A model generated the notes under the pieces. That model was not told the DNA's origin and searched no databases. It saw only the letters and a list, made by a program, of their open reading frames with translations. The position numbers and the translations under genes are program-made. Shown piece by piece: positions 1-49,197 of a stretch of 49,197 nt of DNA (its first letter is position 1; every line of letters begins with the position of its first letter). The DNA comes from a virus, in IMG/VR virus record IMGVR_UViG_3300031576_000073, positions 1 through 49,197 of that record. One strand, 5' to 3'.

Positions 1-358
1 GGGGCCTCTGGGGCCGCTCCCTGGGGGCCTCTGGGGCCGCTCCCTGGGAGCCTCCGGGGTCGCTCCCTGGGAGCCTCCGGGGTCGCTCCCTGGGAGCCTC
101 CGGGGTCGCTCCCTGGGGGCCTCTGGGGCCGCTCCCTGGGGGCCTCTGGGGCCGCTCCCTGGGAGCCTCCGGGGTCGCTCCCTGGGAGCCTCCGGGGTCG
201 CTCCCTGGGAGCCTCCGGGGTCGCTCCCTGGGGGCCTCTGGGGCCGCTCCCTGGGAGCCTCCGGGGTCGCTCCCTGGGAGCCTCCGGGGTCGCTCCCTGG
301 GAGCCTCCGGGGCCGCTCCCCAGGGGCCTCCAGGGCCGCTCCCCAGGGGCCTCCAGGC
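1..358. repeat. GC-rich 23-bp tandem array, left part
   Basis: This is a head-to-tail array with a 23-bp period, seen as fifteen full units followed by a broken one that ends in CCTCCTTTTTT. Three unit types occur. Type A begins GGGGCCTCTGGGG, type B begins GGAGCCTCCGGGG, and type C begins GGGGCCTCCAGGG and ends CCCCA. The order from position 1 is A A B B B A A B B B A B B, then a B/C hybrid, then C. The first 255 bases are identical to the last 255 bases of the window, so this part and the right-hand part are one array on a circular map. The unit is over 80% GC, against an AT-rich phage. No coding role is likely because 23 is not a multiple of 3. Confidence 0.97.
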
Positions 359-380
359 CTCCTTTTTTAGGTAATATAGA

Positions 381-482
381 ATGCTAAAAAGACTATTTAA
401 GATATTAGTTTTGATCGTACTTTGTTTCATATGGTTACTAATACAACTATTACCAAAACAAAAATTTAAGTATAATAAATAA
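381..482 (+). CDS. 33-residue single-span membrane peptide
   Basis: This is a short open frame from ATG to TAA just after the repeat array. It encodes 33 residues: a basic start (MLKRLFK), one hydrophobic stretch (ILVLIVLCFIWLLIQLL) and a basic tail. That layout is typical of a small single-span inner-membrane protein. An AGG lies about ten bases upstream and could be a weak ribosome site. It is the first rightward gene after the array. No family was recognised. A lysis or superinfection role would be a guess. Confidence 0.4.
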   Translation: MLKRLFKILVLIVLCFIWLLIQLLPKQKFKYNK

Positions 483-497
483 ACCTATGATAATATA

Positions 498-1085
498 TTG
501 TATGAAAGGAAAGATATAAACTTTTGGAAAGATATAAACCTTCAGCAAATTGGCGCGACCAGCAGGCACGGGGTAGGGGAAAAATCAAAAATCCTATCAT
601 CATGCGACAAAAATTCATCCCCGGATGAAAAGTCATTTATGCCTGAAATAAAAGAATACTGGTTAAATAATACTATAAATCTTTTGTTAAATAATTCTAC
701 GTTTAAAGGTACTTTATTTCATAGTTCTTTTAGAGGAGACCCAGAACAATATACTTTAATTATTTCTAAAGAAAAAGTTTATGTTGGTAAGATAATTTAT
801 TTAGGAGCAAATCCAAAGCAATCTGAAAAACTTATAACTAAAACTAAAAGTAAAATTATAACTTGGCTTACATTAAATAAGCTGAATATAAAACGCTTGA
901 AAGATTTGCAGACTCATGTTATAGATATTTGCTCACCTTCTAAGGCAGAATCCATAATCAAAGCTATACAAGATCAATCAAAAATCACACAACAAAAAGG
1001 AGGAGAAAGACACGTATTTATTATTTCGGAAACTAATCCTTTAGACTATGTAAATTTGAGGTTCAAATATGTCACTAAAAGATGA
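498..1085 (+). CDS. Hypothetical protein, uncertain start
   Basis: The frame gives up to 195 residues if the TTG at 498 is used. The first 47 residues lie in DNA of odd, more GC-rich composition and look less protein-like than the rest. An internal ATG at 639 (MPEIKEYW) is a plausible alternative start, giving 148 residues. The remainder is lysine-rich and soluble, with no motif I recognise. It overlaps the next gene by 17 bases, which suggests translational coupling. It opens the rightward replication operon. Function unknown. Confidence 0.6.
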   Translation: MYERKDINFWKDINLQQIGATSRHGVGEKSKILSSCDKNSSPDEKSFMPEIKEYWLNNTINLLLNNSTFKGTLFHSSFRGDPEQYTLIISKEKVYVGKIIYLGANPKQSEKLITKTKSKIITWLTLNKLNIKRLKDLQTHVIDICSPSKAESIIKAIQDQSKITQQKGGERHVFIISETNPLDYVNLRFKYVTKR

Positions 1086-1683
1086 TTATATTGCAAGAAA
1101 AAAAGTTAAGAAAATAGCTGAGAAATTAGTTTACATTGAAGAAGAAGGTGAACCAGTTTTAGCTGTTGCACACGTAAAGAGTGCTGATAGTCAAGTAAAA
1201 AAGGCTTTTAGAGAATGTAAGAGTACACAAGAAATGGCTAGAAAGTTAGGTATGAGCCTATCTTATGCCTATTATAGGTTAAGAGTACTAAACTTAAAAT
1301 ATAGACTTAAAAAGAAATATAATGATCTTAACCCGACAATGAAAAAAGATATTTTATCAAGGTATAAAGGGGTAGTAAAAATGCACGATTTATCAAGAAA
1401 ATATAATATAGCACCATACAAAATATCAAGTATTTTACATGAGCAAATTAGAGTAAGGATAGAACATAGTAGAAAAGATATTCCAATACCCAAAAATTTA
1501 TGGGAAGTAAAGATAGCTAATGAAACATTAGATGATCCAACTTTTCTTAACCCACAAAATGTATATAAGTTAGCAAATTTAATTAACTGTAGACCAGTAA
1601 GAATATTAAAATATTTTAATATAAAGACTGAAGACTCAAGTTCTAAAGAACCACGTAGTATATCATGGGAGAAGGACTATTAA
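1069..1683 (+). CDS. Basic helix-turn-helix protein
   Basis: This is a 204-residue, strongly basic protein. Residues about 50-75 (STQEMARKLGMSLSYAYYRL) read as a helix-turn-helix, and a second similar segment lies near residues 105-125 (MHDLSRKYNIAPYKISSIL). Two HTH-like segments suggest DNA binding, either as a regulator or as an initiator-type accessory protein. The start is supported by GAGG eight bases upstream and by overlap with the previous gene. No named family was recognised. Confidence 0.7.
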   Translation: MSLKDDYIARKKVKKIAEKLVYIEEEGEPVLAVAHVKSADSQVKKAFRECKSTQEMARKLGMSLSYAYYRLRVLNLKYRLKKKYNDLNPTMKKDILSRYKGVVKMHDLSRKYNIAPYKISSILHEQIRVRIEHSRKDIPIPKNLWEVKIANETLDDPTFLNPQNVYKLANLINCRPVRILKYFNIKTEDSSSKEPRSISWEKDY

Positions 1684-1728
1684 CATGAGTATTAACATGA
1701 GTGTTAACATGAGTATTAACATGAGTGA
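1681..1728 (+). repeat. 12-bp tandem repeat with serial ATG codons
   Basis: Four copies of TAACATGAGTAT (third and fourth positions from the end vary) fill the space between the HTH gene stop and the helicase start at 1732. Each copy holds a TAA and an ATG. Read in frame from 1685 they give a 17-codon open frame, MSINMSVNMSINMSDICDN, which stops inside the start of the helicase gene. It could act as a leader for translational coupling, or be simple slippage expansion. Confidence 0.85.
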
Positions 1729-1731
1729 TAT

Positions 1732-3102
1732 ATGCGACAATTGATGCAACATCAAGAAGAAGCTATACAATTCCTTAGAACTAAATCATATAAAGCAGGT
1801 TTATTTTTAGCTCCTGGTACAGGTAAAACGTTAATAGCAATTAGAGTAGCTAAAGAATTCTTGCCTGCTTTGGTTATATGTAGACGAGACGATTTTCTTA
1901 CTTGGAGAAATGAATTATTTCAAGAAAGATATTATAAGGAAAATATATTATGTATTTTATCTGAAAATAGTCTTAAAAATTTAACTCACGCTTGGCCTTG
2001 GACTATAGTAACTTATGATTTATTAAAAAACAAAGAGATATATAATTATATATCCAACAAACAATACGGTATAGTTTTTGGTGATGAAAGTCATGCAATA
2101 AAGCATTGGGAATCTCAAAGAACTAAAGTAGTTTATGCAGCTACTCGTCACATAGATAAAAGAATCCTTATGACAGGTAGCCCTATAACAAATGAAATAT
2201 TAGACGTATATTCTCAATGTTTATTTATAGATAACGGGGAAACATTTGGCACTAGTCAATGGAAGTTTAGAAACAATTATTATATACAAAGTGGGCCAGG
2301 ATGGTACCCAAAAAAAGAAGCTAGGAGCATAATAGCTGAAAAGTTAAAGACAATATCCTATCATGTGCACGAAGATGATGTTCTAGATCTGCCACCTATA
2401 AGAACCGTGATAAAAGCTGTTCCTTTAACTATGGAACAAAGAAGATATTATAGTAAGCTAGTGACTAATTGGGAAATAGAATTAAAAAATGGAAAAGTAC
2501 TAGACATAAATTACATTATAGTTAGATTAGCTAAATTAAAACAAATGGCTGCTGGATTTTTCTACATAGAAAAAGAGCCAATATATATCAAAGAAAATAA
2601 AATAAGTTTATTACTAGACCTATTAACTGATAATGCTTATCTTGCCAAGAAGCAAAAAATAGTTATATGGGCATCTTATAGAGCTGAGATACGTAGAATC
2701 TTTCACAATCTAGAAAAAAATGGCTTGAGAACAGTAACATATTATGGAAATATGACCACACCACAGAAGAATGCAGCTAGAGAAAGGTTCAGAGATGATC
2801 CTAGTTGTAGGTTCTTCATAGGCCAGGTGGACTCAGGTGTTGGTATGAACGAACTGGTGGTAAGTGATTCTGCTGTTTATATGTCAAATAGTTTTAAAAT
2901 AGTTTCTCGCCAACAGTCTGAACGACGTATAAGACGTTATGGCTCAGAAAGACACGATAATATAACTTACTATGACATAGTAGCAGAAAAAACTGTTGAT
3001 TTTCCTATTCTAAAATCAATTAAGAAAGGAATGAACATAGCTCAAGACATTCTAAATCAAATAAAGCTCGGTACTTCCATAAAAAAACTGATAGGGTATT
3101 GA
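1732..3102 (+). CDS. SF2 DNA helicase, SNF2-like
   Basis: This 456-residue protein has the motif set of superfamily 2 helicases in order. The Q/N-terminal region is LMQHQEEAI. Walker A is APGTGKT (residues 27-33). Motif II is DESH (about 118-121) and motif III TGSPITN (about 148). Motif V is VDSGVGMN, and motif VI is QQSERRIRRYGS (about 394-404). The DESH box and the motif VI spacing match the SNF2-like helicases common in phages. Such proteins hydrolyse ATP to move along duplex DNA and are thought to help replication, recombination or protein removal. It lies directly upstream of a RecB-like nuclease, so the two may cooperate. Confidence 0.93.
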   Translation: MRQLMQHQEEAIQFLRTKSYKAGLFLAPGTGKTLIAIRVAKEFLPALVICRRDDFLTWRNELFQERYYKENILCILSENSLKNLTHAWPWTIVTYDLLKNKEIYNYISNKQYGIVFGDESHAIKHWESQRTKVVYAATRHIDKRILMTGSPITNEILDVYSQCLFIDNGETFGTSQWKFRNNYYIQSGPGWYPKKEARSIIAEKLKTISYHVHEDDVLDLPPIRTVIKAVPLTMEQRRYYSKLVTNWEIELKNGKVLDINYIIVRLAKLKQMAAGFFYIEKEPIYIKENKISLLLDLLTDNAYLAKKQKIVIWASYRAEIRRIFHNLEKNGLRTVTYYGNMTTPQKNAARERFRDDPSCRFFIGQVDSGVGMNELVVSDSAVYMSNSFKIVSRQQSERRIRRYGSERHDNITYYDIVAEKTVDFPILKSIKKGMNIAQDILNQIKLGTSIKKLIGY

Positions 3103-3150
3103 TTCCGTTTTTCATTCATGCTATGGTGATTTGACTAAGGAAAAGCAGCT

Positions 3151-4137
3151 ATGAAAACACCCTTACCTTTACTTAGAGAATATCCTTTCCAAGAAAAAAT
3201 CCCTCCTCGACGTGAAGATTGGGTCTGGACAGTTTCATCTTTAAAATTATTTAGAAACTGCAAACGAAAATTTTATTGGAAATATATTTTAGGTCTTAAG
3301 CCTAGAAAACTTTCTTCTTCTCTTTATATAGGAAGTTTTGTCCATAGAATATTAGCTGACTGGTATACATTAAAGAATACTAGTATGGAAAATATTTTAG
3401 ATGAACATTTGCCTAAGATAGAAAAAGACATAGAAGGAAAGATTTGGGATCAAGATGAGTTAGATAAGATAGTAATAGCCTTAGAAACATTAAATGGGAT
3501 ATTCAGGGCTTATGAACAAGTTTATAAACAAGATCGTAAAAAATTGCAAATTGTTCATGTTGAAAAGAAATTAGAATTTATAGAAAATAATTTTAGCTTA
3601 GCTGGCAAGATAGACCTTATAGTTAAGAGTAATAAATTTTTTAATGTATGGGATCATAAAACAAGTTCTTTCATAGATAGCTCTTACCTAAATAGGTTAC
3701 CACTAGATACACAACTTAGGGGTTATGCTTACTTAGCGTATAAAAATAAGATGCCTGTAAATGAAGTTACTTACAACTGTATAAAAAAGTGTGCTCTTAG
3801 AAGAAAGTCAGGAGAATCAAGAGAAGATTTTTGTGATAGAATAGCTAAAGATTATATAAAAAGGAGTAGAATATATTTTCATAGAGAAAAAGTTGTAATC
3901 AGTATGGAGGACCTAAGAAGTTTTGAATATGAATTATTGCAAACCAATGATGAATTTCTTAGAATTTTTGAAAGTGGAGGTGTATTAGAGCCTAGAAACT
4001 GGGGTATAAATTGTAGTCATTGTTCAGCTTTCTTTAGGGACTGTGAATATTTAACTTTGTGCACACAAGGGGTAGATAAAACTGCTAAACTTATGTATGA
4101 AGAAGCAGAATTACATGAAGAGTTAGAAAATGAATAA
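3151..4137 (+). CDS. PD-(D/E)XK nuclease, RecB/Cas4-like, Fe-S
   Basis: The 328-residue protein shows the RecB/Cas4 nuclease layout (PDDEXK_1 superfamily). GSFVHR near residue 61 carries the helix histidine. The catalytic triplet follows as GKIDL (about 152), WDHKT (about 168) and QLRGYAYL (about 188). A cysteine at 37 (RNCKRKFYWKY) and three to four cysteines near the C terminus (CSHCSAFFRDCEYLTLC) match the four-cysteine iron-sulfur cluster of Cas4 and AddB nucleases. It probably resects or trims DNA ends in recombination. It follows the helicase closely and overlaps the next gene by eight bases. Confidence 0.9.
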   Translation: MKTPLPLLREYPFQEKIPPRREDWVWTVSSLKLFRNCKRKFYWKYILGLKPRKLSSSLYIGSFVHRILADWYTLKNTSMENILDEHLPKIEKDIEGKIWDQDELDKIVIALETLNGIFRAYEQVYKQDRKKLQIVHVEKKLEFIENNFSLAGKIDLIVKSNKFFNVWDHKTSSFIDSSYLNRLPLDTQLRGYAYLAYKNKMPVNEVTYNCIKKCALRRKSGESREDFCDRIAKDYIKRSRIYFHREKVVISMEDLRSFEYELLQTNDEFLRIFESGGVLEPRNWGINCSHCSAFFRDCEYLTLCTQGVDKTAKLMYEEAELHEELENE

Positions 4138-4381
4138 CTACATATGTAAAAGAAACAAAAATAATAATATAATAATGGGTCTTGGATTAACACAAAAAAC
4201 GTTACAAGAGCTACAAAATGGTTTACAATGGATAATGTCTATTTCAGATAAAAATGGTAAACCTCATAGCGTAATAGTATTTGGTCTTATTGATGATTTT
4301 AAAGATAATATTATAGCTATAGAAGAATTATTTAACTTAGCAATGGAAAGATTCATGGAAGAGGAGGCAAAACATAACTAA
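4130..4381 (+). CDS. Hypothetical 83-residue protein
   Basis: This small gene overlaps the end of the nuclease gene. The protein begins with an Asn/Lys-rich stretch and then has an amphipathic, mixed alpha/beta-like body with an acidic C-terminal helix (IEELFNLAMERFMEEEAKHN). The ATG at 4175 (MGLGLTQKTL) is an alternative start giving 68 residues. No family was recognised. It shares the AT-rich composition of the neighbouring replication genes, unlike the next gene. Confidence 0.65.
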   Translation: MNNYICKRNKNNNIIMGLGLTQKTLQELQNGLQWIMSISDKNGKPHSVIVFGLIDDFKDNIIAIEELFNLAMERFMEEEAKHN

Positions 4382-4411
4382 TGTTATCCATCGCAACCAA
4401 AGGAGGATGAG

Positions 4412-4825
4412 ATGATCGATTTGCCCAATAAACTCTCAGACCTGGTCGACGCGGCCCTCGACGACCTTGAGGCCGTCGAGCGCGACCCCGCCTATCTGGT
4501 TGACATGGAGGTATTCTACAAACCGGGAAAGAATGGAGTGTGCCACGTCTGCCTGGCAGGCGCCGTCATGGTCAGGCGACTCGGGATCAGGCCTGACAAA
4601 GAAATGCTTCTTAAAAATTTCGGGAACTCTGACACCAGAGGCAAGCTGTACGCGCTTGACTATTTCGCCTACGGGTACATCTCCGACGCGCTATCCTCTA
4701 TGGGGCTCTACAACCTTGAGGAGCCTGACTGTCCTGACTGGCAGGATTACGATCACACGGACCCTAAGATTTTCAAGACTCAAGCTCGGGCCGCCGCGGC
4801 GACGCTGAGGGCCAAAGGATTATAG
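4412..4825 (+). CDS. GC-rich accessory protein with CxVCLAGAVM motif
   Basis: The 137-residue protein starts after a strong ribosome site (AAAGGAGGATGAG). Its codons are GC-rich (GAC, GCC, CTC, GTC), in sharp contrast with the genes on both sides, which points to recent transfer. Residues 43-53 read VCHVCLAGAVM. That is a cysteine-glycine motif like those in the small accessory proteins at 8825, 45229, 46285 and 47706. The protein is acidic, with no membrane segment. The function is unknown; a moron-type cargo gene is the best description. Confidence 0.8.
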   Translation: MIDLPNKLSDLVDAALDDLEAVERDPAYLVDMEVFYKPGKNGVCHVCLAGAVMVRRLGIRPDKEMLLKNFGNSDTRGKLYALDYFAYGYISDALSSMGLYNLEEPDCPDWQDYDHTDPKIFKTQARAAAATLRAKGL

Positions 4826-4944
4826 GCGTGAGCGTCCATGTTCTGTTTTCTTTAATAAAGATACTATATGGGAGCATGAAAAACTTAAATGGAATCTATC
4901 TCTGAAGATACTTTTAAGAATCAATGCAATTATAACAAAAACCA

Positions 4945-5682
4945 ATGATAACTAAAACAATACAATTAGATTTAAAACTTCCAACCGAGCCGACTAAGAG
5001 CAAATCGACATTTAAGGGATGCTTATGTTTATTTTATGGTGCGCCAGGGGTTGGTAAAACTACTTTTGTAAATAATCTTACAGCCAAAAAAGTTTTATTT
5101 ATATCTACAGATAGAGGCACAAGATATTTAGAAACCATGCGAGTGGAATGCAACTCTTGGAAGAAGTTACAACAAATACTTACTGCACTTAAAAAGGATC
5201 ATAAAACTTATGATTTTATTTGCTTGGATCATGTAGATGATATATGTAACTTAGCAGAGTCTAACGTTTGCGAAGAAATGAATATAGAGGCTTTAGGTGA
5301 TGCAGATTGGGGTAAAGGTTGGAAATTATATGAATCTAAAATTAGAAAGTTAGTGCAAGATTTACTCTCTTTAAGTTTAGGTGTTGTCTTTATTTCTCAT
5401 GAAGTTACAAGAACTAACAGGAGTAGAACTTTAGAATTAGAAGTTACTATGCCAGCTTTGAGTAAAGCTGCTGGTAAAGTAATAATTCCTATGTGTGAAA
5501 TTGTTGGGTACATATCAGTTAGAGTAATGAGGAATGCTGAAAAACAAAAAGTAAATAGACATGTTTTACAAACGCAACCAAAGGAGGAACTGTATTGTAA
5601 AGACAGAACAGATAGAAGGAAGAATAGTAAGGACTATGAGTTATTAAATGCAGAAGAATTCTTAAAAACTTTTGAGGTCTAA
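4945..5682 (+). CDS. Sak4-like RecA-fold ATPase, phage recombinase
   Basis: This 245-residue protein has a RecA/AAA_24-type core. Walker A is GAPGVGKTT at residues 32-40, Walker B is FICLDHVDD near 91-99, and a sensor-like strand (VVFISHE) lies near residue 149. This is the pattern of the phage Sak4 family and the related AAA_24 nucleotide-binding proteins. Sak4 proteins promote single-strand annealing and usually work with a phage ssDNA-binding protein. The next gene, two bases downstream, fits that partner. The start at 4945 has only a weak ribosome site. Confidence 0.85.
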   Translation: MITKTIQLDLKLPTEPTKSKSTFKGCLCLFYGAPGVGKTTFVNNLTAKKVLFISTDRGTRYLETMRVECNSWKKLQQILTALKKDHKTYDFICLDHVDDICNLAESNVCEEMNIEALGDADWGKGWKLYESKIRKLVQDLLSLSLGVVFISHEVTRTNRSRTLELEVTMPALSKAAGKVIIPMCEIVGYISVRVMRNAEKQKVNRHVLQTQPKEELYCKDRTDRRKNSKDYELLNAEEFLKTFEV

Positions 5683-5684
5683 TC

Positions 5685-6422
5685 ATGAAAATAGAAGGTA
5701 AGAAAAATATTAGTAGCTTACTTAAGAAATTAGAAGAATTTTGGGATACTCCAGAAAAAACATGGGGCGATGTTCCGGATGGTCCTTATCAAGTTAAAAT
5801 TGAAAGTGCTGTATTAAATGAAAGTAAAGCATCAGGTAGGTTACAAGTTTCTTTTCAATTTAATGTTTTAGAAGGTGATTTTATAAATAGAAAGATATTT
5901 AAACACTCAGGATTAGATAATGAGAGCAATATAGCATATTTTAGAGGGGATATAGGAAAATTAGGACACGAATGGCCTGAAACTCCTGAAGGATTAGAGC
6001 CTATATTAAATGAATTACTAGACTCTTGTGCTGAAATTAAGGTAAAAACTTCTGCAAGGGATGGTCAAGAGTATACAAATGTCTATATAACGAGAGCAAT
6101 TGATCCTATTCAAACTGAAGAAGAAGAACAGCAAGATATTGATGAAGTACAGATACAAAAAACCCCTAAGACTAAAAAATTCATACTGAAAAAGGAAGAG
6201 GAAGGGGAGAAGGAATTAACAATTTCATATCATTTTGAAGAGGACGATATAAACGATGCCCAGAAAGAAAAAATTATGAACATGGCCGAAAAAATGGAGA
6301 TGAATTTAGACTTATATAATGAATATATACAGATTTTAAAAGATATGTGTGAAGCTAATGAGCTTTCGGGTGCCTATGAATCTCCAAAAGCTGTTATACG
6401 TGCTATAGAGGCTGCTATGTAG
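5685..6422 (+). CDS. Putative ssDNA-binding protein, DUF669-like
   Basis: The 245-residue protein has a beta-rich N-terminal half (GPYQVKIESAVLNESKASGR, then LQVSFQFNVLEGDFINRKIF). This resembles the DUF669/OB-fold proteins that commonly sit beside Sak4 or RecA-like phage ATPases. A charged, glutamate-rich linker near residues 145-185 leads to a helical C-terminal domain. Acidic stretches of this kind often contact partner proteins in ssDNA-binding proteins. Position and spacing argue for co-expression with the ATPase. The family call is made from pattern and context only. Confidence 0.65.
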   Translation: MKIEGKKNISSLLKKLEEFWDTPEKTWGDVPDGPYQVKIESAVLNESKASGRLQVSFQFNVLEGDFINRKIFKHSGLDNESNIAYFRGDIGKLGHEWPETPEGLEPILNELLDSCAEIKVKTSARDGQEYTNVYITRAIDPIQTEEEEQQDIDEVQIQKTPKTKKFILKKEEEGEKELTISYHFEEDDINDAQKEKIMNMAEKMEMNLDLYNEYIQILKDMCEANELSGAYESPKAVIRAIEAAM

Positions 6423-6573
6423 GCCATTATCTAAGTTAGGAGGTGTTGCTTATTGTGATTAACCAATAATTAGGGGGATAAGAAGACTCACTTGGTTCTC
6501 TTATCCTGAAGGTACATTATACCATAGCTGATAAACTTCACATTATCAGCTATGGTTTATAAGAAAAATAAAT
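6423..6573 (+). other. Structured intergenic region with two hairpins
   Basis: This gap contains no gene but holds two strong inverted repeats. The first is GGATAAGA at 6476-6483 pairing with TCTTATCC at 6499-6506. The second is ACCATAGCTGATAA at 6521-6534, pairing perfectly over 14 bases with 6543-6556 around an 8-base loop. The second is followed by TTATAAGAAAAA rather than a T-run, so it is not a classic rho-independent terminator. It may be an RNA processing or stabilising structure, or an operator, between the recombination genes and the next small genes. Confidence 0.75.
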
Positions 6574-6906
6574 ATGAACCTAAAAGAAGCTACAAAAAAT
6601 ATAGAGTATTATTTTTCTTTATTCACTTTAGAAGAAAAAGAAAATTTAAAATATCACTTAAAAAATAATACTGGAATTCTTTGTGGTCTAGATGCTTACA
6701 TGTACACTAAAGAAGATAAAGGCTGACCTACTTGGCTAGCTTGTAGCCGTGAGCTGCCAAAAACTAGAAGATATGTGGCTTGCAACTCGATTCTAAAAAG
6801 ATTTAATGTTAATAATCATGGGTACTCTAATAATTATTTAAAATCTCTAGAAAGACTAGACGAAGAAACAATAAAAAAAATATTAGCAATTATTGTGGGT
6901 ATGTAA
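6574..6906 (+). pseudogene. Small gene interrupted by in-frame TGA
   Basis: From ATG at 6574 a frame of 50 codons ends at TGA (6724-6726). The same frame then stays open for another 59 codons to TAA at 6904. Both halves look protein-like (MNLKEATKNIEYYFSL before, PTWLACSRELPKTRRYVACN after), so the whole would be about 110 residues with one TGA inside. Elsewhere in this genome TGA is used as a normal stop, so general recoding is unlikely. Just after the TGA lies a hairpin, GGCTA-GCTTG-TAGCC. This is either a nonsense-mutated gene, a sequencing error, or read-through. Confidence 0.55.
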
Positions 6907-6922
6907 AAGAAGGATTGTAATT

Positions 6923-7075
6923 ATGAATATTGTAGAATTTAGAGATACCTTAGAACACCTTATTAATCGTACAAATATGGAAGCTGGATCAAATACACCA
7001 GATTTTATTCTAGCTAATTATCTTCTTGAATGTTTACAAGCTTTTGATAGAGCATCTAACTTGAGAGAAGAATAG
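6923..7075 (+). CDS. Hypothetical 50-residue protein
   Basis: The ATG at 6923 lies eight bases after AGAAGGA, a good ribosome site, so I prefer it to an upstream TTG at 6893. The peptide (MNIVEFRDTLEHLINRTNME and on) is acidic and helical, with no membrane segment. It sits between the TGA-interrupted gene and the GC-richer block that begins at 7111. No family was recognised. Confidence 0.65.
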   Translation: MNIVEFRDTLEHLINRTNMEAGSNTPDFILANYLLECLQAFDRASNLREE

Positions 7076-7110
7076 TATAGTAAAAAACATGTGCCAGGAG
7101 AAGTGCAAAG

Positions 7111-7395
7111 ATGATTGATGAAGAAATCCGCGCTCAACTGAAACGCATAGACGAAGCTGAAGACCTGAGAGTGTCAAGCTGGGAAGCTGGGTTCATTCAG
7201 AACATTCTCTATGGGTGGCCTACGAAGAACTTCCCAGAGAGATCAACAGAAATGGTTTCTTTTAGGCTTTCAAAGAAACAGCACATTAAGGCAATGGAAA
7301 TCATTAAACGGTACAAAATAGATGCTTCTGGCGGACAAGAAACAATCACGAAGCTGCCACCCGGAACGGAGCGGCACTTTAGAAAGAGGATATAA
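7111..7395 (+). CDS. Hypothetical protein, accessory block
   Basis: The 94-residue protein opens a run of small genes with higher GC content than the replication genes around them. AGGAGAAG lies upstream of the ATG. The sequence (RVSSWEAGFIQNILYGWPTK, then LSKKQHIKAMEIIKRYKI) resembles a group of small phage proteins of unknown role found near replication genes. It has no catalytic signature. The stop and the next start overlap by one base (TAATG), so translation is likely coupled. Confidence 0.75.
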   Translation: MIDEEIRAQLKRIDEAEDLRVSSWEAGFIQNILYGWPTKNFPERSTEMVSFRLSKKQHIKAMEIIKRYKIDASGGQETITKLPPGTERHFRKRI

Positions 7396-7697
7396 TGGGC
7401 TCAGAACATCACGGTTCACGAGCAGATGATAAGTACTTCAGAGAGCGGTTTATGGAGCAAATGGAAAAGGATTCCGAGAGAACATGGCCCAATGGAAGAA
7501 TTAGTGGAGAAGACGATGGAGAACTGGCCTTTATGGTTAGCTTTGATCCAGTGCATAAAACGATCCGCATCGACTTTCCGATGAAGGTTGATTGGCTTAG
7601 AATGTCACCAGAAAGAGCAAGAGGCTTGGCAGCTATACTTCTGGAAGAGGCTCAGAAAATCGACAACATCGTTAAAACAGAGATTGATAAACTTTGA
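7395..7697 (+). CDS. Conserved small phage protein
   Basis: The 100-residue protein is soluble and acidic at the N terminus. The core (DDGELAFMVSFDPVHKTIRI, then DFPMKVDWLRMSPERARGLA) recalls a widespread phage hypothetical family. That family pairs a short beta-hairpin with an amphipathic helix around a V-x-W-L-x-(M/L)-x-P pattern. Function unknown. It is tightly coupled to the gene before it and lies ahead of the alanine-rich gene. Confidence 0.8.
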   Translation: MGSEHHGSRADDKYFRERFMEQMEKDSERTWPNGRISGEDDGELAFMVSFDPVHKTIRIDFPMKVDWLRMSPERARGLAAILLEEAQKIDNIVKTEIDKL

Positions 7698-7755
7698 TCC
7701 GAAAGAGCTATAACAGAAGAAAATAATAAATAACTCCTAACATGAAAGGAAAGCC

Positions 7756-8550
7756 ATGCGTCTAGTAAGCGGTATAGGATCTGAAGCTAGCGGGGCTTGC
7801 TGGATGTCAGCATTGCATTGGTACACCAGGATTGATCACTCCTGGAGTGATAACCCGCAATGTGTGTCACTAGTGGTACGCGAACTTTGTCTTGCACTGA
7901 ATGATATGTGCCATGACGATGAGCGTGAGGAGTTCATCGGCCCACACTTGTTTACTCCGATTGGTACTAATGTTGGGCATAAGGCTGAGCAGTTGCGAGC
8001 TTATCTTTGTGCCGATTATGCCGTGCGGGTGTTTGCTCCATATGCCCTTGAAGTTATTGGGCTAAATATGGAGGCTGCTAAACTTCGTAGTCTTAAGCCG
8101 ATCTGTGGCAAAATTTCTTCGGCGGCGGCAGCGGAGGCGATGGCGAAGGTGGCGATGATGAAGGCGGCAGCGGCGGATTCGGCGGCTCCGGCGGCATGGG
8201 CGACGGCGGCATGGGCGATGGCGACGGCGGCAGCATGGACGGCGGCGGCGAAGGCGATGGCGAAGACGATGGCGGCGGCGGCGATGGCGGCGGCGATGGC
8301 GACGACGGCGATGAATGTGGCGAATGCGGCGAGTGCGGCGGCGGAGGATGCGATGGAGACGGCGGCGGCAATGGCGGAGAAGGCAGTGGCGGTCAAAATG
8401 ATGGACCATGATCGACTAGCTATGGGGCGGAAAATAAAATCTTCGTTGCTCCGGTTGATCCTTGAATGTTGCGCAATCGGTACACGAAGGGAAATCCAGA
8501 CGACTAAAACAAAAGAAGAAGTGTTCGCAATGCTCGAAGCTGGAAAGTGA
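7756..8550 (+). CDS. Phage protein with alanine-rich repeat domain
   Basis: The 264-residue protein has a folded N-terminal domain (residues 1-120). Segments such as SGACWMSALHWYTRIDHSWS and IGPHLFTPIGTNVGHKAEQL match a conserved phage family of unknown function that often carries Ala-rich tails. Residues about 121-215 are almost entirely alanine with spaced Met, Trp, Thr and Lys, encoded by GCG/ACG/ATG triplet repeats. A charged C-terminal helix (KTKEEVFAMLEAGK) follows. The triplet repeat leaves all six frames open over 8117-8400, but only this frame has sensible flanks and a ribosome site (AAAGGA). Confidence 0.85.
   Translation: MRLVSGIGSEASGACWMSALHWYTRIDHSWSDNPQCVSLVVRELCLALNDMCHDDEREEFIGPHLFTPIGTNVGHKAEQLRAYLCADYAVRVFAPYALEVIGLNMEAAKLRSLKPICGKISSAAAAEAMAKVAMMKAAAADSAAPAAWATAAWAMATAAAWTAAAKAMAKTMAAAAMAAAMATTAMNVANAASAAAEDAMETAAAMAEKAVAVKMMDHDRLAMGRKIKSSLLRLILECCAIGTRREIQTTKTKEEVFAMLEAGK
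8117..8395 (+). repeat. GCG-rich triplet repeat tract
   Basis: About 280 bases of degenerate triplet repeat, mostly GCG mixed with ATG, ACG and AAG, lie inside the alanine-rich gene. The G at every third position makes spurious long frames on both strands. The tract is far more GC-rich than the phage average. It looks like slippage expansion or an acquired low-complexity segment kept in frame. Confidence 0.9.
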
Positions 8551-24466: not shown

Positions 24467-27136
24467 CTACTCTCTTCCAGCACTAATTCTTCTAAGACTA
24501 GACACTATTTGTCTTTTAGATCGTCTAAAGCTATTGGCATCAGGGGTATTAACATATATATTTATTATAGAAGCCCCACCGCCAGAAGTATGCACACCTA
24601 ATCTACCACTGGAGTCTCTAGCTAAAGGTAGAATACCTTCAGTTTCAGTTTCAGACATCATACCTCTTTTACCAGAAGCAGAATATAAACTTGTAGGTTC
24701 AGATATAATGCTACCATACTGATATTTTACTGGTCGCGGACCAGAACCAGTGTCTATTGTAGCCACACCATCAGCCTCATCACCAACTCCTCCACTAAAA
24801 ATACTTGTACCTATTTGAGTTACTAAATTTGCTACTAGTTGTCCAGCAGGTTCAGTAACAGCTTTTCTAATTACTGCTGTACTAAGACTTCTTAGTAAAT
24901 CTCTTAAAATATCTTTAAGCTTAGCTGTTTGAAATATAAGTTTATCTAAAGCATCAGTAAAAGCATTACCTATCTCATCAGCAGTTTGTCTTAATTTATT
25001 TAATGTCTGTAATGTAGATATAAGCTTACCAAGAGCTTTTACTTCTGCATCTACAGCAATTTTTTCCTTATCACTTAAATCTCTAGTAAGATCATATAAT
25101 TGAAGCTGTTTTTCTCTTTCATTATTAGATAAACTTAAAACATCTATTTCTTTTCGTATTCTCTTTGCTATATTTTCAATTTCCCTTTGTTTATTTAATG
25201 TCTGTAATGTAGATATAAGCTTACCAAGAGCTTTTACTTCTGCATCTACAGCAATTTTTTCCTTATCACTTAAATCTCTAGTAAGATCATATAATTGAAG
25301 CTGTTTTTCTCTTTCATTATTAGATAAACTTAAAACATCTATTTCTTTTCGTGTTCTCTTTGCTATATCAGCAATTTCCCTTTGTTTATTACCTATATTT
25401 ACCAATCTCAATAATTCTGTGTATTTATCTATTTGTTCCTGAGTAATAATAGCATCATTCTGTGCAGCTATTCTTTTTACATCATATAATTCAAGTTCCA
25501 CTTCTCTAGCATTATTAACTAATTTAATGACGTTTAATTCTGCCTGTTTTCTACTAATTAAATCCTGTATTCTAAATTCTGCTGCTTCTTGTTGTCTTGT
25601 CTTTGGTCGATATGGTTCTTCTATTTGTAATGGTCCAACAAAATCAGGAGGATACGGTACTGATGGTGCTACATAATTTTCTGGTAATGGAGGCCCTTGA
25701 TCTACGTATGGTTTAAGTATACCTAAACCTATTCTTATTCTATCAGCTCCTCTTTTAGAAATTTCATTTACATCATTCCAATAATCTACCCATAACTTTT
25801 TAGTTTCTCTAACATCATGAGAACTAAAAAAATCTACTAGAAATTTACCAAACCTAGCAGCTTCCTCTATATGTGTACTAGTTACATCTTTCAATATAGC
25901 GGTTCCTGGCATAAGTCTATAACGTACTCTATTTAATGTAGTACTTATTTTCTCCCACTCTTGTCCCCATCCAGCTAAAGCTCTTATACCAGCATTTATT
26001 ACAGTAAGTAAATCCTTGATAGCACCAATAAGACCAGCTTCACCAGTATCTACAGCTATTTGCTGAAATGTAGAACTAAGCTTATTAAGTTTAGCATTTA
26101 TAGATTCATCTAGCATGCCTGAAAATTCTCGTACAGTACCACCTGCATTTTTTAGTAAGCTAATAAATTCTTCTATTTTAGTTGTAGATTTAAGCATGTT
26201 AATTACATCTACAACATTTCTACGCTCGAATAAAAATGGAGCTTTACCTATGTCTATTTGTACCTTATTATATGCTTTTAGTACATCTACAAATTTATGT
26301 GTTATAGGACTAGCTTCATCAACATTCTCTATTAACTCTTCTAATACTCTTCGTTGCTCTTGAGTTGGTCTTATCATAGTTATTAGTGTACTTCTAAGAG
26401 CCGTACCAGCAGATTCTCCAACTCTTCCAGCATCAGCTAAAACCACTAATAAAGCAGCTACTTCCTCTATTTGATTACCAGCAGCAGAAAATATAGGTCC
26501 AGCTTTTTGAAATGCTTCAGTTATCTCACCAATATTTGTTTTACTAAGTCCAGCAGCTAAAGCAAAAACATCTGTGACTCTCTCAGTTTGATCTATACCT
26601 AAACTAAATTGTACAAGCGCATCTGTAACAGATTTTACAGCTTGTTCCATACCAATCATACCTACAGAAGCAAATTTCATTATAGGCGCAAGAGCTACCA
26701 TTACATCTTTAGCACTAAAACCAGCTTTAACTAAAGTAGTTAAACCTTCTGTAGCTTGTATAGCAGAAAACCTTGTTGCATTGCCCATTTCAAAAGCAAC
26801 ATCTTTTAACTCATTAAAACTTCGTATTTGTTCTTGTACAGGTACCCTAGGATCTATTAAATGACCTCTTAATCTAATAAGAGCTTCATCCATTTCTCTA
26901 ATAGTATCTATGCTAGCTTTTATACCGCGCAAGGCAGCAAAAGCAGCTCCAAAGGCTAAAAAGCGTGTAGTGAACGCCGCTAAATAACTAGAGCTACCTA
27001 TAAGCTTTCTATCTAAGCTCCCCATAGAAAGATTAAGACGATTAACCGTTCCAATAGTTATACCCATCTGAGTTGAAAGCTGAGCTAAAGCAGTCTGTGC
27101 TTGCTTACTTTGTATAGCGAGACTTAGCGTAGCCAT
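24467..27136 (-). CDS. Tape measure protein
   Basis: The 889-residue protein has the TIGR01760-type N-terminal half, with GNATRFSAIQATEGLTTLVK, AAGLSKTNIGEITEAFQKAG and VGESAGTALRSTLI, a long coiled-coil middle, and a glycine-rich end. It sets tail length and passes through the membrane on DNA injection. The middle contains two nearly identical 65-residue repeats (NNEREKQLQLYDLTRDLSDK in both), so the tail may be longer by one unit. It lies between the tail chaperones and the distal tail gene, as expected. Confidence 0.95.
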   Translation of the reverse strand: MATLSLAIQSKQAQTALAQLSTQMGITIGTVNRLNLSMGSLDRKLIGSSSYLAAFTTRFLAFGAAFAALRGIKASIDTIREMDEALIRLRGHLIDPRVPVQEQIRSFNELKDVAFEMGNATRFSAIQATEGLTTLVKAGFSAKDVMVALAPIMKFASVGMIGMEQAVKSVTDALVQFSLGIDQTERVTDVFALAAGLSKTNIGEITEAFQKAGPIFSAAGNQIEEVAALLVVLADAGRVGESAGTALRSTLITMIRPTQEQRRVLEELIENVDEASPITHKFVDVLKAYNKVQIDIGKAPFLFERRNVVDVINMLKSTTKIEEFISLLKNAGGTVREFSGMLDESINAKLNKLSSTFQQIAVDTGEAGLIGAIKDLLTVINAGIRALAGWGQEWEKISTTLNRVRYRLMPGTAILKDVTSTHIEEAARFGKFLVDFFSSHDVRETKKLWVDYWNDVNEISKRGADRIRIGLGILKPYVDQGPPLPENYVAPSVPYPPDFVGPLQIEEPYRPKTRQQEAAEFRIQDLISRKQAELNVIKLVNNAREVELELYDVKRIAAQNDAIITQEQIDKYTELLRLVNIGNKQREIADIAKRTRKEIDVLSLSNNEREKQLQLYDLTRDLSDKEKIAVDAEVKALGKLISTLQTLNKQREIENIAKRIRKEIDVLSLSNNEREKQLQLYDLTRDLSDKEKIAVDAEVKALGKLISTLQTLNKLRQTADEIGNAFTDALDKLIFQTAKLKDILRDLLRSLSTAVIRKAVTEPAGQLVANLVTQIGTSIFSGGVGDEADGVATIDTGSGPRPVKYQYGSIISEPTSLYSASGKRGMMSETETEGILPLARDSSGRLGVHTSGGGASIINIYVNTPDANSFRRSKRQIVSSLRRISAGRE
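24995..25388 (-). repeat. 195-bp tandem duplication in tape measure gene
   Basis: Two copies of a 195-bp segment lie head to tail; for example TAATGTCTGT is found at 25001 and again at 25196. They differ at only a few positions near the ends. The period is exactly 65 codons, so the frame is kept. The near identity suggests a recent duplication. Confidence 0.93.
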
Positions 27137-41923: not shown

Positions 41924-42065
41924 ACATATATATATATATATGTATATATATATAGGGGGTTAATATATGTTTTTTAGAGGATAGCCTAGGGGGGTACTGG
42001 GCAACGTTCCCACAGTATAAAATTTCACCCTCGGCACATTTTGTACTTCTGACAATATATTTCCA
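41924..42065 (-). promoter_or_regulatory. Terminase intergenic region with (TA)n tract
   Basis: The 142-base gap between the small and large terminase genes begins with an alternating TA tract (41928-41954), interrupted by TG. A G-rich stretch (GATAGCCTAGGGGGGTACTG) follows. The tract can form a cruciform and holds TATA-type boxes. A promoter or a packaging signal is possible, but neither can be shown from sequence. Confidence 0.4.
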
Positions 42066-42536
42066 TTAGTTATTCGTTTGCATAGAAGACATAGCTTGCC
42101 TTTGAAACACTACTAGAGCTTTGGCTTGTTCCTCCAGTGTCGGACCGTTTTGTACTTCTGGCAAGTTATATACCTTCGGCCTTCTCATTTTTAGAAGGAA
42201 CATCATAAGATGAGGAGAATATACTTTCTTATAGGAAAATATTTGCCCTTTATAATGTATAGGCTCGTCCCACCCATGGATTGCTTTATGGATAGTATTG
42301 TACTCTAGGTGAGAGGTTAACCTTTCTTCTACTTCATCATAAGCTTCAGCAAATTCCGGGTCTATCTTTTTGTATCTTAAGACAGTAGAATGCGAACAAG
42401 AACACTTACGGCAAGCTTCTGCCTTAGAAAGAGTTTTCTCAAACTCATATATAAATTTATTCGGATCGAATGCATCCCAACGAGACTTATAACGACCGCG
42501 AGAATATCTTTTTAGTTTTGTTAGTCTTAAGATCAT
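42066..42536 (-). CDS. Terminase small subunit
   Basis: The 156-residue protein has a helix-turn-helix near residues 38-58 (KAEACRKCSCSHSTVLRYKK) and the family-typical end PHLMMFLLKMRRPKVY. Small terminases bind the packaging start site and recruit the large subunit, encoded next. It overlaps the RuvC-like gene by four bases. Confidence 0.88.
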   Translation of the reverse strand: MILRLTKLKRYSRGRYKSRWDAFDPNKFIYEFEKTLSKAEACRKCSCSHSTVLRYKKIDPEFAEAYDEVEERLTSHLEYNTIHKAIHGWDEPIHYKGQIFSYKKVYSPHLMMFLLKMRRPKVYNLPEVQNGPTLEEQAKALVVFQRQAMSSMQTNN

Positions 42537-43114
42537 ATGTCTTTAATATGTTTATATAGTAATGTCCTTGCTATACTCAAAATATAATACTCTCCTATGC
42601 CTATTGCATCTGCTATATTATCATCGGTGCCATTATAATTCCAACGTTCTTGTGCACGTCGCATAGTAACTTCTTTTGGTGCTTGTCCTTTCCAATTACT
42701 AACTGGTAACAGACAGATGTTATTTATAGTACATATATTACCAGAAATTAAAGCTTGACGCAAGGAAAAAACCAAAGAAAAAAGCTTGGTCAAAGCACCT
42801 GAATTTAACGCAGCCTGCCCGCGAGAAGATTGATAACATTCTGGCAATTCTATTACTATCTTATTAGGCTTAACTTCTGTTGATAAAACCAGAACTCTTT
42901 TTATCATATAATCAAGTTTATCTACCCAACTCATTTTATTAACAGAAAAATTCTTTACTGCACCATAATATAATAATTCCATATCAGGCGTGACTTTAAT
43001 AGCAGAAATTTCCTTAAAGAAACTTTTATTATATGTTAAAGGTATTTTCCTTTTGACTAAAAAGATAGCATAACCCAAATGCTGTATGGAAGGGTCTATG
43101 GATAGTATTTTCAT
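42533..43114 (-). CDS. RuvC-like Holliday junction resolvase
   Basis: The 193-residue protein has RuvC/RNase H-fold signatures: an N-terminal LSIDPSIQHLGYAIF with the first catalytic Asp (residue 7), a central KIVIELPE with a catalytic Glu, and a C-terminal TDDNIADAIGIGEYY with the last Asp residues. Phage enzymes of this kind clear branched DNA before packaging, which fits its place directly ahead of the terminase genes. It is the first gene of the leftward operon. Confidence 0.9.
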   Translation of the reverse strand: MKILSIDPSIQHLGYAIFLVKRKIPLTYNKSFFKEISAIKVTPDMELLYYGAVKNFSVNKMSWVDKLDYMIKRVLVLSTEVKPNKIVIELPECYQSSRGQAALNSGALTKLFSLVFSLRQALISGNICTINNICLLPVSNWKGQAPKEVTMRRAQERWNYNGTDDNIADAIGIGEYYILSIARTLLYKHIKDI

Positions 43115-43145
43115 GTATTATATTATAATAATAGAATAGCAAAAC

Positions 43146-43211
43146 ACAAGATTTTTATTTTTGTTATTCTATATATAAACAAGGTTTTTATTTTTGTTAT
43201 TCTATATATAA
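43146..43211. repeat. 33-bp tandem duplication
   Basis: Two head-to-tail 33-base copies (ACAAG, then TTTTTATTTTTGTTATTCTA) differ at one base. They lie just upstream of the RuvC-like gene on its promoter side and contain TATATATAA-like boxes. They could double a promoter or protein-binding site. Confidence 0.93.
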
Positions 43212-43254
43212 GGCGGGAGAAGACGCATTTAACCTTCTATAAAAATTGCTCTAA

Positions 43255-43290
43255 AAATTTCCTTTCTCTAATAAATTTCCTTTCTCTAAT
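43255..43290. repeat. 18-bp tandem repeat
   Basis: The sequence AAATTTCCTTTCTCTAAT occurs twice head to tail with no mismatch. It is in the divergent regulatory region, close to the 33-bp duplication. Function unknown. Confidence 0.93.
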
Positions 43291-43862
43291 ATATTAGCAA
43301 AACTAATAATGCAAACTTGTAGAATTTCGGAAAATTCATGCAACCGTGATAATTATCTAGCCCATCTGAAATCCAAAACACCTAATTTTTTTTCACTACA
43401 CAAGAAATCACTTGCAACTTCGATTTTTTTTTCGGTCTATACGTGGGGGAAACGGGAGTCCACACCCAGTTCTTCTCTCTTCTCTTCTATATTTCTTCCA
43501 CTATTACTATTTATATATTATAACTATACCCTATTTCTATAATAAATCCGCATTCTCTTCCTGTTTTCTTCCCCGTTTTTTTCTCATGAAAATACAGGCA
43601 AAAATAACGTGAGTCTATTATAGTTCCCTTTTGTTAGGCATAGCGAACAATCAGCTTTTTCTTGCAGTTTTCAAATTTTTGTATTTTTTTTATCCCCTGC
43701 AACAGGCGGCCTTTATGACTTTTAGCTATATTATAAACTTAGGGAAACGGTCCCTGAAGAGTCTATAGAAATAGGCTAAAATGCATTTTTTATGTTATAA
43801 ACCCCCAAAAAAAGCCCCAAAAAGCCATAAAACTGATTTCGACATTTTGAACTTCGAACAAA

Positions 43863-43900
43863 GACGCATCCTATGTATCTACAAGTACATAGGACGCGTC
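43863..43900. other. Long hairpin in the divergent region
   Basis: GACGCATCCTATGTA at 43863-43877 pairs with TACATAGGACGCGTC at 43886-43900, with one imperfect pair and an eight-base loop. No T-run follows on either strand. It could be an RNA structure, a protein-binding site or an origin hairpin. Confidence 0.85.
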
Positions 43901-44718
43901 TACGTTAGAATAAAAAAATTTTGAGTTTGTGCGGACCCTATTTCCATAGGCTTTCATGCAAAACACGACAAGAATTCTGGTAATTTAAAAGCTGTCCTAA
44001 CTTCTTATATACTCATGACTTAGTTTTTTGGTCACAAAACAGAAAGATGTCTGACAAGTTCCCTTACATCGCACTAACATTTTTTCACACAATATGCTAT
44101 ATGGGCTAGATGGTCTATACTAAGCTGCACCTCTTACTCCACGGCACCTATAGCATATAACCATTCTTCTCCCCAAATTCCTCTCGTTTTCAAATTTTCA
44201 TCATCCAGGCAAGGAAATCTAATTTAATCCCAAAGTGTCTTTTAGCAGTATTATAAACGTGAGTCAAATTCGATTCTTGTCCGTTTTGAAAAAAGCCAAA
44301 AGTCATAAGTCACTGTTACAATCAACAGCGCAACCTCCCAGCCCTGCCATTTTCAACTTTTTCACGTCAAAAACCCCACAAGAAAACCATCTAATCTTGC
44401 AAGATTTTCATAATAACAGTTCCCAGAATCGTAAGTCCTTATGGCGTATAGACATCTTTGCCCTTTTTGTATACTATCCCTAGCAGTATGATTTTTCTGT
44501 AAAACTCTACAGCGTATACCTTTACAGCAAAAATCTTATCTACAAGAAAACACCACAATAATAGTATTCTGAACAGAAATCGCTAATTATTTTTGTTTTT
44601 ATCACCTAACTCCTTCTCTTTTCATAACTTAGCGGAATTTTATTGTGTTAATCTAACGCCTCGCATACAATGCGCCTCGCGTAGTACCCTAGGGAGTATC
44701 TTAGAAGGAGTAGAACTT

Positions 44719-44910
44719 ATGCGCATTACTTTGTTGCTTACTCGATACACGAACAAGGCTGCCTCTAGTAGAGACATCGCTATCCCCAATCCGGACGGGT
44801 ACGATGCTTTTGCTAGAGCGCATAGGATCGGTCACAACTGGCGCGAGCGAAACAAGGAAGGAGAGAACAACTACTATAATTATCACGTAAAGTTTCTGCG
44901 CATCGATTAG
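44719..44910 (+). CDS. Hypothetical 63-residue protein
   Basis: The ATG at 44719 lies eight bases after AGAAGGAG, a strong ribosome site, so it is preferred over upstream starts. The peptide is basic (MRITLLLTRYTNKAASSRDI, then RAHRIGHNWRERNKEGENNY). It is the first rightward gene after the divergent region, so it is probably expressed early. No family was recognised. Its last 40 bases belong to a repeated DNA element. Confidence 0.7.
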   Translation: MRITLLLTRYTNKAASSRDIAIPNPDGYDAFARAHRIGHNWRERNKEGENNYYNYHVKFLRID

Positions 44911-44996: not shown

Positions 44997-44997
44997 T

Positions 44998-46643: not shown

Positions 46644-47594
46644 ATGTCTCATGAATTTGAATCTGGACTTTTTGTCGGTACTGCTGCATGGCATGGTCTA
46701 GGTGTTACTCTAGAAAACGCTCCTGATAATATAGAAGAAGCCCTTAGAATAGCCGGTCTAGACTGGAGCGTGGAGTTAGAGCCTATTTTTCTACGGGACG
46801 GCACGTTAGTTGAGGAGAAAAAAGCAGTTATACGGTCTACCGATCGTAGCATATTGGGAGTAGTAGGAAATCGTTTTCGTCCACTACAAAACCTAGAAGC
46901 ATTCCGGTTTTTTAATAGCTTTTTAGAAGTAGGACAAGCTCGTATCGAAACTTGTGGTAGTCTATATAACGGCCGTAGAATTTTTGTTTTAGTGCGCCTA
47001 TTAGTAGATGATGTCGACGTGGCAAAAGGGGACACTATTCGACCGTACCTTGCCTTGGCTCACGGACACGATGGTACTCTCGTAGTAACTGTAATGTTTA
47101 CTGCTGTCAGGATTGTCTGTGCAAATACCTTGGGGGCAGCCTTATCATCTACGTCAAACGACGGTTCGAGCATTCGCCTTCGTCATACTAAAAGTCTTCC
47201 TATAGGTCTTGAAAAAGCACAAGATACTATTTCTCTAGCAAAGCAGAGTTGGGATATTTCCGTCGATGCATTTAAGCGTATGGCTAAAACCGCTATGACA
47301 GGAAAGGAGTTTGCCACCTATGCTAAGAAAGTTTTTTCTGTAAACGAAGATATTGAAGAGCTCCCTAAGAAAACTCAAAATATGCTAGATATTTTGACAG
47401 AGACATACGATAACGGACCTGGTTTAACTTCCCACACTCGTGGTACTATTTGGGCCGGGTATAACGCAATTACGTCCTATCTGGATCATACTCGTGGTCG
47501 CACGGCGGAGAGTAGGCTAGATTCTACTTGGTTCGGTGCATCTAGTCAGACTAGAGCCCGTGCTCTAGAAATAGCGTTTGCTTCGCAGAATTAG
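46644..47594 (+). CDS. DUF932 protein
   Basis: The 316-residue protein matches DUF932 (phage/plasmid-like TIGR03299). It starts with a GTAAWHGLGVTLENAPDNIE segment. GVVGNRFRPLQNLEAFRFFN follows, then VRIVCANTLGAAL. The helical end contains TRGTIWAGYNAITSYLDH. The family is common on phages and plasmids, and its biochemical role is not settled. GAAAGGAACC precedes the ATG. Confidence 0.93.
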   Translation: MSHEFESGLFVGTAAWHGLGVTLENAPDNIEEALRIAGLDWSVELEPIFLRDGTLVEEKKAVIRSTDRSILGVVGNRFRPLQNLEAFRFFNSFLEVGQARIETCGSLYNGRRIFVLVRLLVDDVDVAKGDTIRPYLALAHGHDGTLVVTVMFTAVRIVCANTLGAALSSTSNDGSSIRLRHTKSLPIGLEKAQDTISLAKQSWDISVDAFKRMAKTAMTGKEFATYAKKVFSVNEDIEELPKKTQNMLDILTETYDNGPGLTSHTRGTIWAGYNAITSYLDHTRGRTAESRLDSTWFGASSQTRARALEIAFASQN

Positions 47595-48262: not shown

Positions 48263-48454
48263 ATGGTAACTAAGATAACAGAATATAAAGGTAGGCCAAT
48301 TTTCGGCATCTATAAGACAACGGAGGAAACATATCCGGTTGTTTCATTCGGTCTAGAAAAAGCAAAGGTTATTCTTGCTCATATAGATGGCATTAAAAGT
48401 TTTGTTCTAACAGCAGGAAAGGAGACTCATAATGACAAGCAAAGAGTACGTTAG
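48263..48454 (+). CDS. Hypothetical 63-residue protein
   Basis: The ATG at 48263 (MVTKITEYKGRPIFGIYKTT) follows AGAGGACTAACAGAA, a good ribosome site, so it replaces an upstream start inside the zinc-finger gene. The protein is a small alpha/beta unit (KVILAHIDGIKSFV). It overlaps the next gene by 23 bases. No family was recognised. Confidence 0.75.
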   Translation: MVTKITEYKGRPIFGIYKTTEETYPVVSFGLEKAKVILAHIDGIKSFVLTAGKETHNDKQRVR

Positions 48455-48629
48455 AGCTACCTTTGATGCGGAAGGGCCGTTAGGTGTTTTGAAATATCTA
48501 GAAGAAATACTTTTAGAATTACGAGACACCTGGAACGATAAAGACATGCGCGCAGTATGCATTAGGGATGCGAAAATACTTGCCGATGCAGCAGAAGAAA
48601 TAGCCAAGCCTCTTGGCCGCAATGCCTAA
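48432..48629 (+). CDS. Hypothetical acidic 65-residue protein
   Basis: The ATG at 48432 has AAGGAG nearby. The protein is helical and acidic (EYVRATFDAEGPLGVLKYLE, later AVCIRDAKILADAAEEIAKP). It is the last gene before the GC-rich array. No family was recognised. Confidence 0.75.
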   Translation: MTSKEYVRATFDAEGPLGVLKYLEEILLELRDTWNDKDMRAVCIRDAKILADAAEEIAKPLGRNA

Positions 48630-48642
48630 CCGGATGTACTTC

Positions 48643-49197
48643 GGGAGCCTCTGGGGCCACTCCCTGGGGGCCTCTGGGGCCGCTCCCCAGGGGCCTCCAG
48701 GGCCGCTCCCCAGGGGCCTCTGGGGCCGCTCCCCAGAGGCCTCCAGGGCCGCTCCCCAGAGGCCTCCAGGGCCGCTCCCCAGGGGCCTCCAGGGCCACTC
48801 CCCAGGGGCCTCCAGGGCCGCTCCCCAGGGGCCTCCAGGGCCGCTCCCCAGGGGCCTCCAGGGCCACTCCCCAGGGGCCTCCAGGGCCGCTCCCCAGGGG
48901 CCTCCAGGGCCGCTCCCCAGGGGCCTCCAGGGCCGCTCCCCAGGGGCCTCTGGGGCCGCTCCCTGGGGGCCTCTGGGGCCGCTCCCTGGGAGCCTCCGGG
49001 GTCGCTCCCTGGGAGCCTCCGGGGTCGCTCCCTGGGAGCCTCCGGGGTCGCTCCCTGGGGGCCTCTGGGGCCGCTCCCTGGGGGCCTCTGGGGCCGCTCC
49101 CTGGGAGCCTCCGGGGTCGCTCCCTGGGAGCCTCCGGGGTCGCTCCCTGGGAGCCTCCGGGGTCGCTCCCTGGGGGCCTCTGGGGCCGCTCCCTGGG
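48643..49197. repeat. GC-rich 23-bp tandem array, right part
   Basis: The array continues with about 24 units of 23 bp. It starts with a hybrid unit, then units mostly of type C (GGGGCCTCCAGGG..., ending CCCCA). From 48943 it switches to A A B B B A A B B B A. The stretch 48943-49197 equals 1-255 exactly. Joined on a circle, the array has about 28 full units plus a partial one. A units carry G-runs that fit a G-quadruplex pattern, and unit junctions such as GCTCCCTGGGAGC are palindromic. Confidence 0.97.

Follow-up and report, generated by a model that had tools for sequence, protein, structure and literature searches.

Why does a virus contig of 49,197 nucleotides (IMG/VR record IMGVR_UViG_3300031576_000073, the whole stretch of DNA that we analysed and refer to here as the window) begin and end with the same 255 bases, and does this identity reflect the biology of the virus or the way in which the contig was assembled? 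In a suffix-prefix comparison of the 49,197-base record, bases 1-255 were exactly identical to bases 48943-49197, confirming what the preliminary description had claimed and giving the exact agreement of contig start and contig end, here over 255 bp, that characterizes a terminal repeat made by assembly overlap. Shorter exact suffix-prefix overlaps of 140 and 25 bp are also present, and the members of the 25, 140 and 255 bp series are spaced by 115 bp. Closure on the 255-bp overlap gives a circle of 48,942 bp with its junction inside a tandem array. An identity of 255 bp is too long to have arisen by chance. In a periodic array, however, such an identity by itself neither fixes the copy number nor proves that both ends are the same DNA. 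The parts of the locus at the two contig ends are:

1..358, no strand assigned: left-end part of the array, 15 unit cores followed by a truncated unit
48642..49197, no strand assigned: right-end part of the same array, 24 unit cores
1..255, no strand assigned: stretch with a period of 115 bp (AABBB AABBB A plus two bases), equal to 48943-49197, its borders being the contig ends
48943..49197, no strand assigned: second copy of the 255-bp stretch at the right contig end, exactly identical to 1-255

Once the circle is closed, the array measures 659 bp and comprises exactly 28 complete units of 23 bp, the number given in the preliminary description, and a truncated last unit. The 28 complete units are arranged in tandem, head to tail, as in a minisatellite or VNTR. 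The main unit types are A, with four exact copies, B, with eight, and C, with seven, while the remaining nine units represent seven other types. The first half of the array consists of C units and their variants, after which the units follow in the order x A B B B A A B B B A B B x C; the x that opens this series is an A unit with a different first base. The A and B units make a higher-order repeat of five units, or 115 bp, which matches itself exactly over 140 bp. Shuffling the order of the units produced a self-match of 140 bp in only 2 of 2000 trials, which indicates that the higher-order repeat is real. Eight of the 23 unit columns are variable, the differences are transitions throughout, not one indel separates the 28 units and the units are graded at both edges of the array. 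The graded edges, the lack of indels and the transition-only columns are in keeping with a real minisatellite that has been homogenised. The fixed spacing and the restriction of the variation to transitions hint mildly at constraint, or may simply be those of a young, homogenised array. A CRISPR array was rejected, as the units stand head to tail without spacers. A coding repeat was also rejected: after closure the six frames are open for 228-268 codons, as expected of a stop-free GC-rich repeat, and 23 is not a multiple of three. The array looks non-coding.

The array had been described as very GC-rich within an AT-rich phage, and its GC content of 80.6%, against 35.9% for the rest of the genome, bears this out; the most GC-rich 600 bp outside the array reach 59.7%. 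The unit core, allowing up to three mismatches, occurs 39 times, always within the array, with 15 occurrences at the left contig end and 24 at the right, compared with a mean of 0.05 in shuffled sequence. In composition the array thus stands as an extreme island within an AT-rich phage, and it offers a convenient test case for the dynamics of repeats in phage genomes. Its placement between accessory and replication genes was likewise as first described, with cargo genes, that is, a DUF932 protein and small paralogs, on one side (the last ORF ending at 48629) and replication genes on the other, where the helicase begins at 1732. The flanking genes are:

46644..47594, + strand: DUF932 protein, in the cargo region on one side of the array
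48432..48629, + strand: last ORF before the array, its stop codon 12 bases from the array
498..1085, + strand: first ORF of at least 60 aa past the array, with a TTG start and no PHROG or Pfam match
1732..3102, + strand: SNF2-type helicase, the first recognised replication gene past the array

Three cargo ORFs on the + strand (45229-45570, 46228-46602 and 47655-48257) have a region in common; the first two are 54% identical over 90 columns and 52% identical over 50 columns, respectively, to the third, and none of the three has a Pfam match. The DUF932 gene is followed, ahead of the next cargo gene, by a strong terminator-like hairpin with 13 pairs and a T run (47655-47685), and an alignment of the paralogs suggests that the cargo gene after DUF932 probably starts at about 47706. 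On the other side, within the AT-rich replication region, an alanine-rich ORF of 56% GC with internal tandem repeats lies at 7756-8550, and the opposite strand of this stretch also has open ORFs. A search of the window gave no RNA family match at the gathering threshold.

The position of the contig ends is informative. In the closed circle the stretch with the period of 115 bp spans offsets 0 to 255, that is, from the first base of the contig to the last base of the repeated end. Since its borders are both contig ends, a cut made at an arbitrary point of the circle would not have met them. In a de Bruijn model with 127-base k-mers, built for one strand first and then in a two-strand version that had the same branch places, the array gives a 140-bp unitig that occurs twice and a loop, and one pass through the loop yields 140 + 115 = 255 bp. 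The contig therefore ends at branch points of the graph, the graph in question being our model and not the original one. The only other branches in the k=127 model are found at one feature:

24977-25390: 195-bp tandem repeat, 2.1 copies, in the tape measure gene

The real assembler passed this repeat, which is a second spot where a short-read assembly could miscount. The addition of one or three copies of the 115-bp repeat left the branch structure of the model the same, which means that the contig cannot give the copy number, and the suggestion that the real number may be greater than 28 is supported. An alternative model with 255-bp overlaps and one or three extra 115-bp copies also yields a contig of 49,197 bases, so the contig is consistent with more than one assembler setting. 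The model with 255-bp overlaps, however, needs a chance match of overlap length to repeat phase, and by our own reckoning the k=127 version is therefore to be preferred. Under both graph models the 28 units would be a floor, and the copy number would change in steps of 115 bp.

We conclude, with a probability of roughly 0.8, that the identity of the ends stems from an assembly overlap within a phage minisatellite and is not a biological terminal repeat, and that the map closes. The earlier proposal that the contig closes on itself within the array is supported, as the borders of the 115-bp higher-order repeat are the contig ends. The proposal of a circular genome of about 48.9 kb stands in so far as the map closes, but it does not extend to physical circularity or to 48.9 kb as the true length, since other templates give the same graph. 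The virus would be a siphovirus with a circular map of about 48.9 kb and a single non-coding minisatellite made up of 28 or more 23-bp units. The exact part of the five-unit, 115-bp higher-order repeat would exceed the length that the assembler could resolve, the graph would loop at this repeat, and the contig would be cut at the borders of the stretch with the stretch kept on both ends. Both contig ends would then be one locus, and the array may expand and shrink by slippage or unequal recombination. A higher-order tandem array can in this way yield a long contig-end ‘terminal repeat’ of biological appearance, and such records may pass as complete with a fixed length even though the array may be longer than the record shows.

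Circularly permuted DNA, the concatemers of a fixed-end phage and a linear genome ending in the array all give the same graph, and a fixed-end phage with the array inside its terminal repeat would look identical to what we see. It is therefore possible to read the array as marking the physical ends of linear virion DNA whose fixed ends would lie in the array or next to it, the repeat being active in replication or packaging. There is a precedent in the variable tandem repeat described at the right terminus of kayvirus 812 (PMC6445280), and linear genomes replicated via concatemers are also stated to yield terminal repeats (CheckV, PMC8116208). We nevertheless regard fixed ends as unlikely, because the graph model accounts for the contig ends without biology, about 6 kb separate the array from the small terminase gene (42066-42536), and the array sits within a run of ORFs of one direction. 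Related records also provide no parallel. Terminase and capsid queries gave 88 loci, from which 30 records were searched and eight related records taken for the comparison of ends; in the 16 end stretches (3 kb each) of these eight distant relatives, TRF found no array of more than 2.6 copies. Exact end overlaps occur in five of the eight (144, 97, 127, 127 and 127 bp) and are absent from the other three, but k-mer-like end overlaps of this kind cannot tell a circularly permuted genome from one with fixed ends. With phages of the Manatee Spring records the terminase shares 44% and 42% identity, and PaMx25/NP1-like phages come next at about 30%. For a relative of these phages, a comparison of terminases is described as having failed to predict packaging (PMC7472734).

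The right border of the array resembles a terminator:

346..368, + strand: terminator-like array end, with a hairpin at 346-361 (6 pairs, 5 of them G-C, loop of 4) and T at 363-368, a consensus match only

None of the 28 complete units contains a T run, and the resemblance to a terminator is confined to the last, truncated unit. Terminator-like sites are not in excess over shuffles at 1-8000 (4 found, 5.1 expected) or at 42000-49197 (5 found, 6.8 expected). With a stop codon 12 bases before the array and a terminator-like hairpin and six T at its end, an origin from an operon-end terminator is plausible. We also note a possible 33-aa hydrophobic peptide at 381-482, with its start codon 12 bases past the T run of the array; an ORF from 381, right after the T run, would fit transcription through the array, which would go against a terminator role. 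We commit ourselves only weakly, at a little short of even odds, to the suggestion that the array is largely passive and may have grown from a terminator where the cargo genes meet the replication genes.

Measured against ordinary shuffles, the folding of parts of the array appears stronger than expected, with z scores of -2.7 (+ strand) and -2.0 (- strand) for 1-120 and -4.25 for 48600-48720, a stretch that includes 42 flank bases. The right edge (300-380) has a z score of +0.4 on both strands, and five single-unit strings range from -0.7 to +1.1. As a control that keeps the architecture of the array, we applied an identical column permutation to all units. Column-permuted arrays fold as well in 18 of 200 cases on the + strand and 54 of 200 on the - strand, and their dyads are as good in 43 of 500 (13 bp) and 51 of 500 (18 bp), the lowest counts among 11 widths. 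An array of specific hairpins or palindromes is not supported, given that the fold signal vanishes against these controls, and this result also weighs against the terminator origin.

It appears improbable that the array is a functional cis element of variable length, made of regularly spaced protein-binding or terminator units whose copy number is tuned by recombination at the time of infection; the units might then stop transcription or replication, or start packaging. Equally doubtful is a cis-acting site in the form of origin iterons, a partition site or another array to which a phage protein would bind. The strict 23-bp spacing over 28 units with no indels and with transitions only, at eight columns, would suit such a site, as would the position of the array next to replication genes. 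Replication origins, however, are not usually GC-rich in the way that the array is (81% GC, with an AT-rich flank past 368), and the best dyads are no better than those of column-permuted controls. Among the ORFs scanned, a subset of the total, neither a replication initiator nor a partition protein was recognised, the absence of the latter arguing against a partition site. The cumulative GC skew also reaches its minimum elsewhere, at about 44-45 kb, in the vicinity of AT-rich repeats that lie between divergent genes. Here, at 43129-45200, approximately 2 kb separate divergent gene sets and hold only small ORFs, and there are AT-rich direct repeats (33 bp twice at 43146 and 18 bp twice at 43255). 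This region is a better candidate for the origin than the array.

The recognised virion genes include both terminase subunits, portal, scaffold, capsid, tape measure and tail proteins, and the recognised replication genes encode a primase, helicase, nuclease, Sak4-like annealing protein, single-strand binding protein, uracil-DNA glycosylase, PolA and a RuvC-like resolvase, a content that fits a whole siphovirus genome. The idea that the two ends are different loci, and the 49-kb stretch a portion of a larger element carrying two arrays, is compatible with the periodic sequence but highly improbable in the face of the complete complement of genes for head, tail, packaging and replication recognised within 49 kb and the same 255-bp variant order at both ends, which is unlikely for two independent arrays.

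Searches for relatives of the array were negative. TRF found no similar array in the 88 related loci; with a filter of score at least 60, period at least 8 and GC at least 0.12 above that of the locus, six rows passed, the largest being 5.5 copies of a 15-bp unit in a locus of 60% GC. No similar array was found by BLAST or in plasmids, in searches that may leave out near records. The same holds for scans that detect near-identical units only and may also leave out near records, which returned no stretch in viral contigs with two patterns and none in genome contigs with the long pattern. The shorter pattern gave 14 loci in genome contigs with one match each, and the sole match in the phage search was a 42-bp place in 85 mycobacteriophage records; we read both as chance. 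As for the neighbouring genes, the DUF932 and primase queries had no match in 16 related records, nor had the primase query in the viral-contig scan. The polymerase query matches 4 of the 16 related records and the helicase query 6 of 30, all distantly. In MW202621 a TIGR03299 phage/plasmid-like protein, a family that we take to be DUF932, adjoins a helicase, but in the opposite order.

Tandem repeats are found in other phages, reportedly including those of Brevibacterium (De Melo 2020). On the side of assembly, terminal repeats are described as often equal in length to assembler k-mers, with highly repetitive ones likely to be false positives (CheckV, PMC8116208), and assemblies fragmented by repeats as sharing end sequences of the largest k-mer length (COBRA, PMC10914622). 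The present case resembles these in that the identity of the ends would be made by the assembler at a circular or unresolved template. The cases described there, however, are usually k-mer-long and at a random place, whereas here a tandem array forms the overlap and the 115-bp repeat sets the overlap length. The assembler used for the siphovirus P-SS2 is likewise reported to have collapsed its tandem repeats (PMC2816706). On the side of biology, the unit genome of kayvirus 812 is described as closing with a tandem array of 35-bp units, which number from four to more than twenty, next to a long terminal repeat (PMC6445280). Like our array it is a single tandem array in a phage genome, one that varies and for which a role in replication or packaging was suggested, but its unit is AT-rich and it lies beside a mapped terminal repeat of 8.5 kb, while here the unit is GC-rich and known from one record. 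Corynephage CL31 has a 42-bp minisatellite, resolved by Sanger sequencing, that similarly defeated the initial assembly and differed in copy number between plaques (PMC8002715); it is located in a tail gene with the frame kept, whereas the array here is intergenic and its unit length of 23 bp is not divisible by three. Borg elements, too, are described as having intergenic arrays in which the length of most units is no multiple of three (PMC9879509), although those repeats are A-biased and occur in 460 regions of ten genomes, in contrast to one GC-rich array here. The array thus differs from known variable phage arrays in its GC content and higher-order repeat and, unlike that of CL31, is intergenic. 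We read the phage minisatellite as an ordinary kind of feature that is here extreme in GC; the new point is the reason for the position of the contig ends, namely the borders of the 115-bp higher-order repeat.
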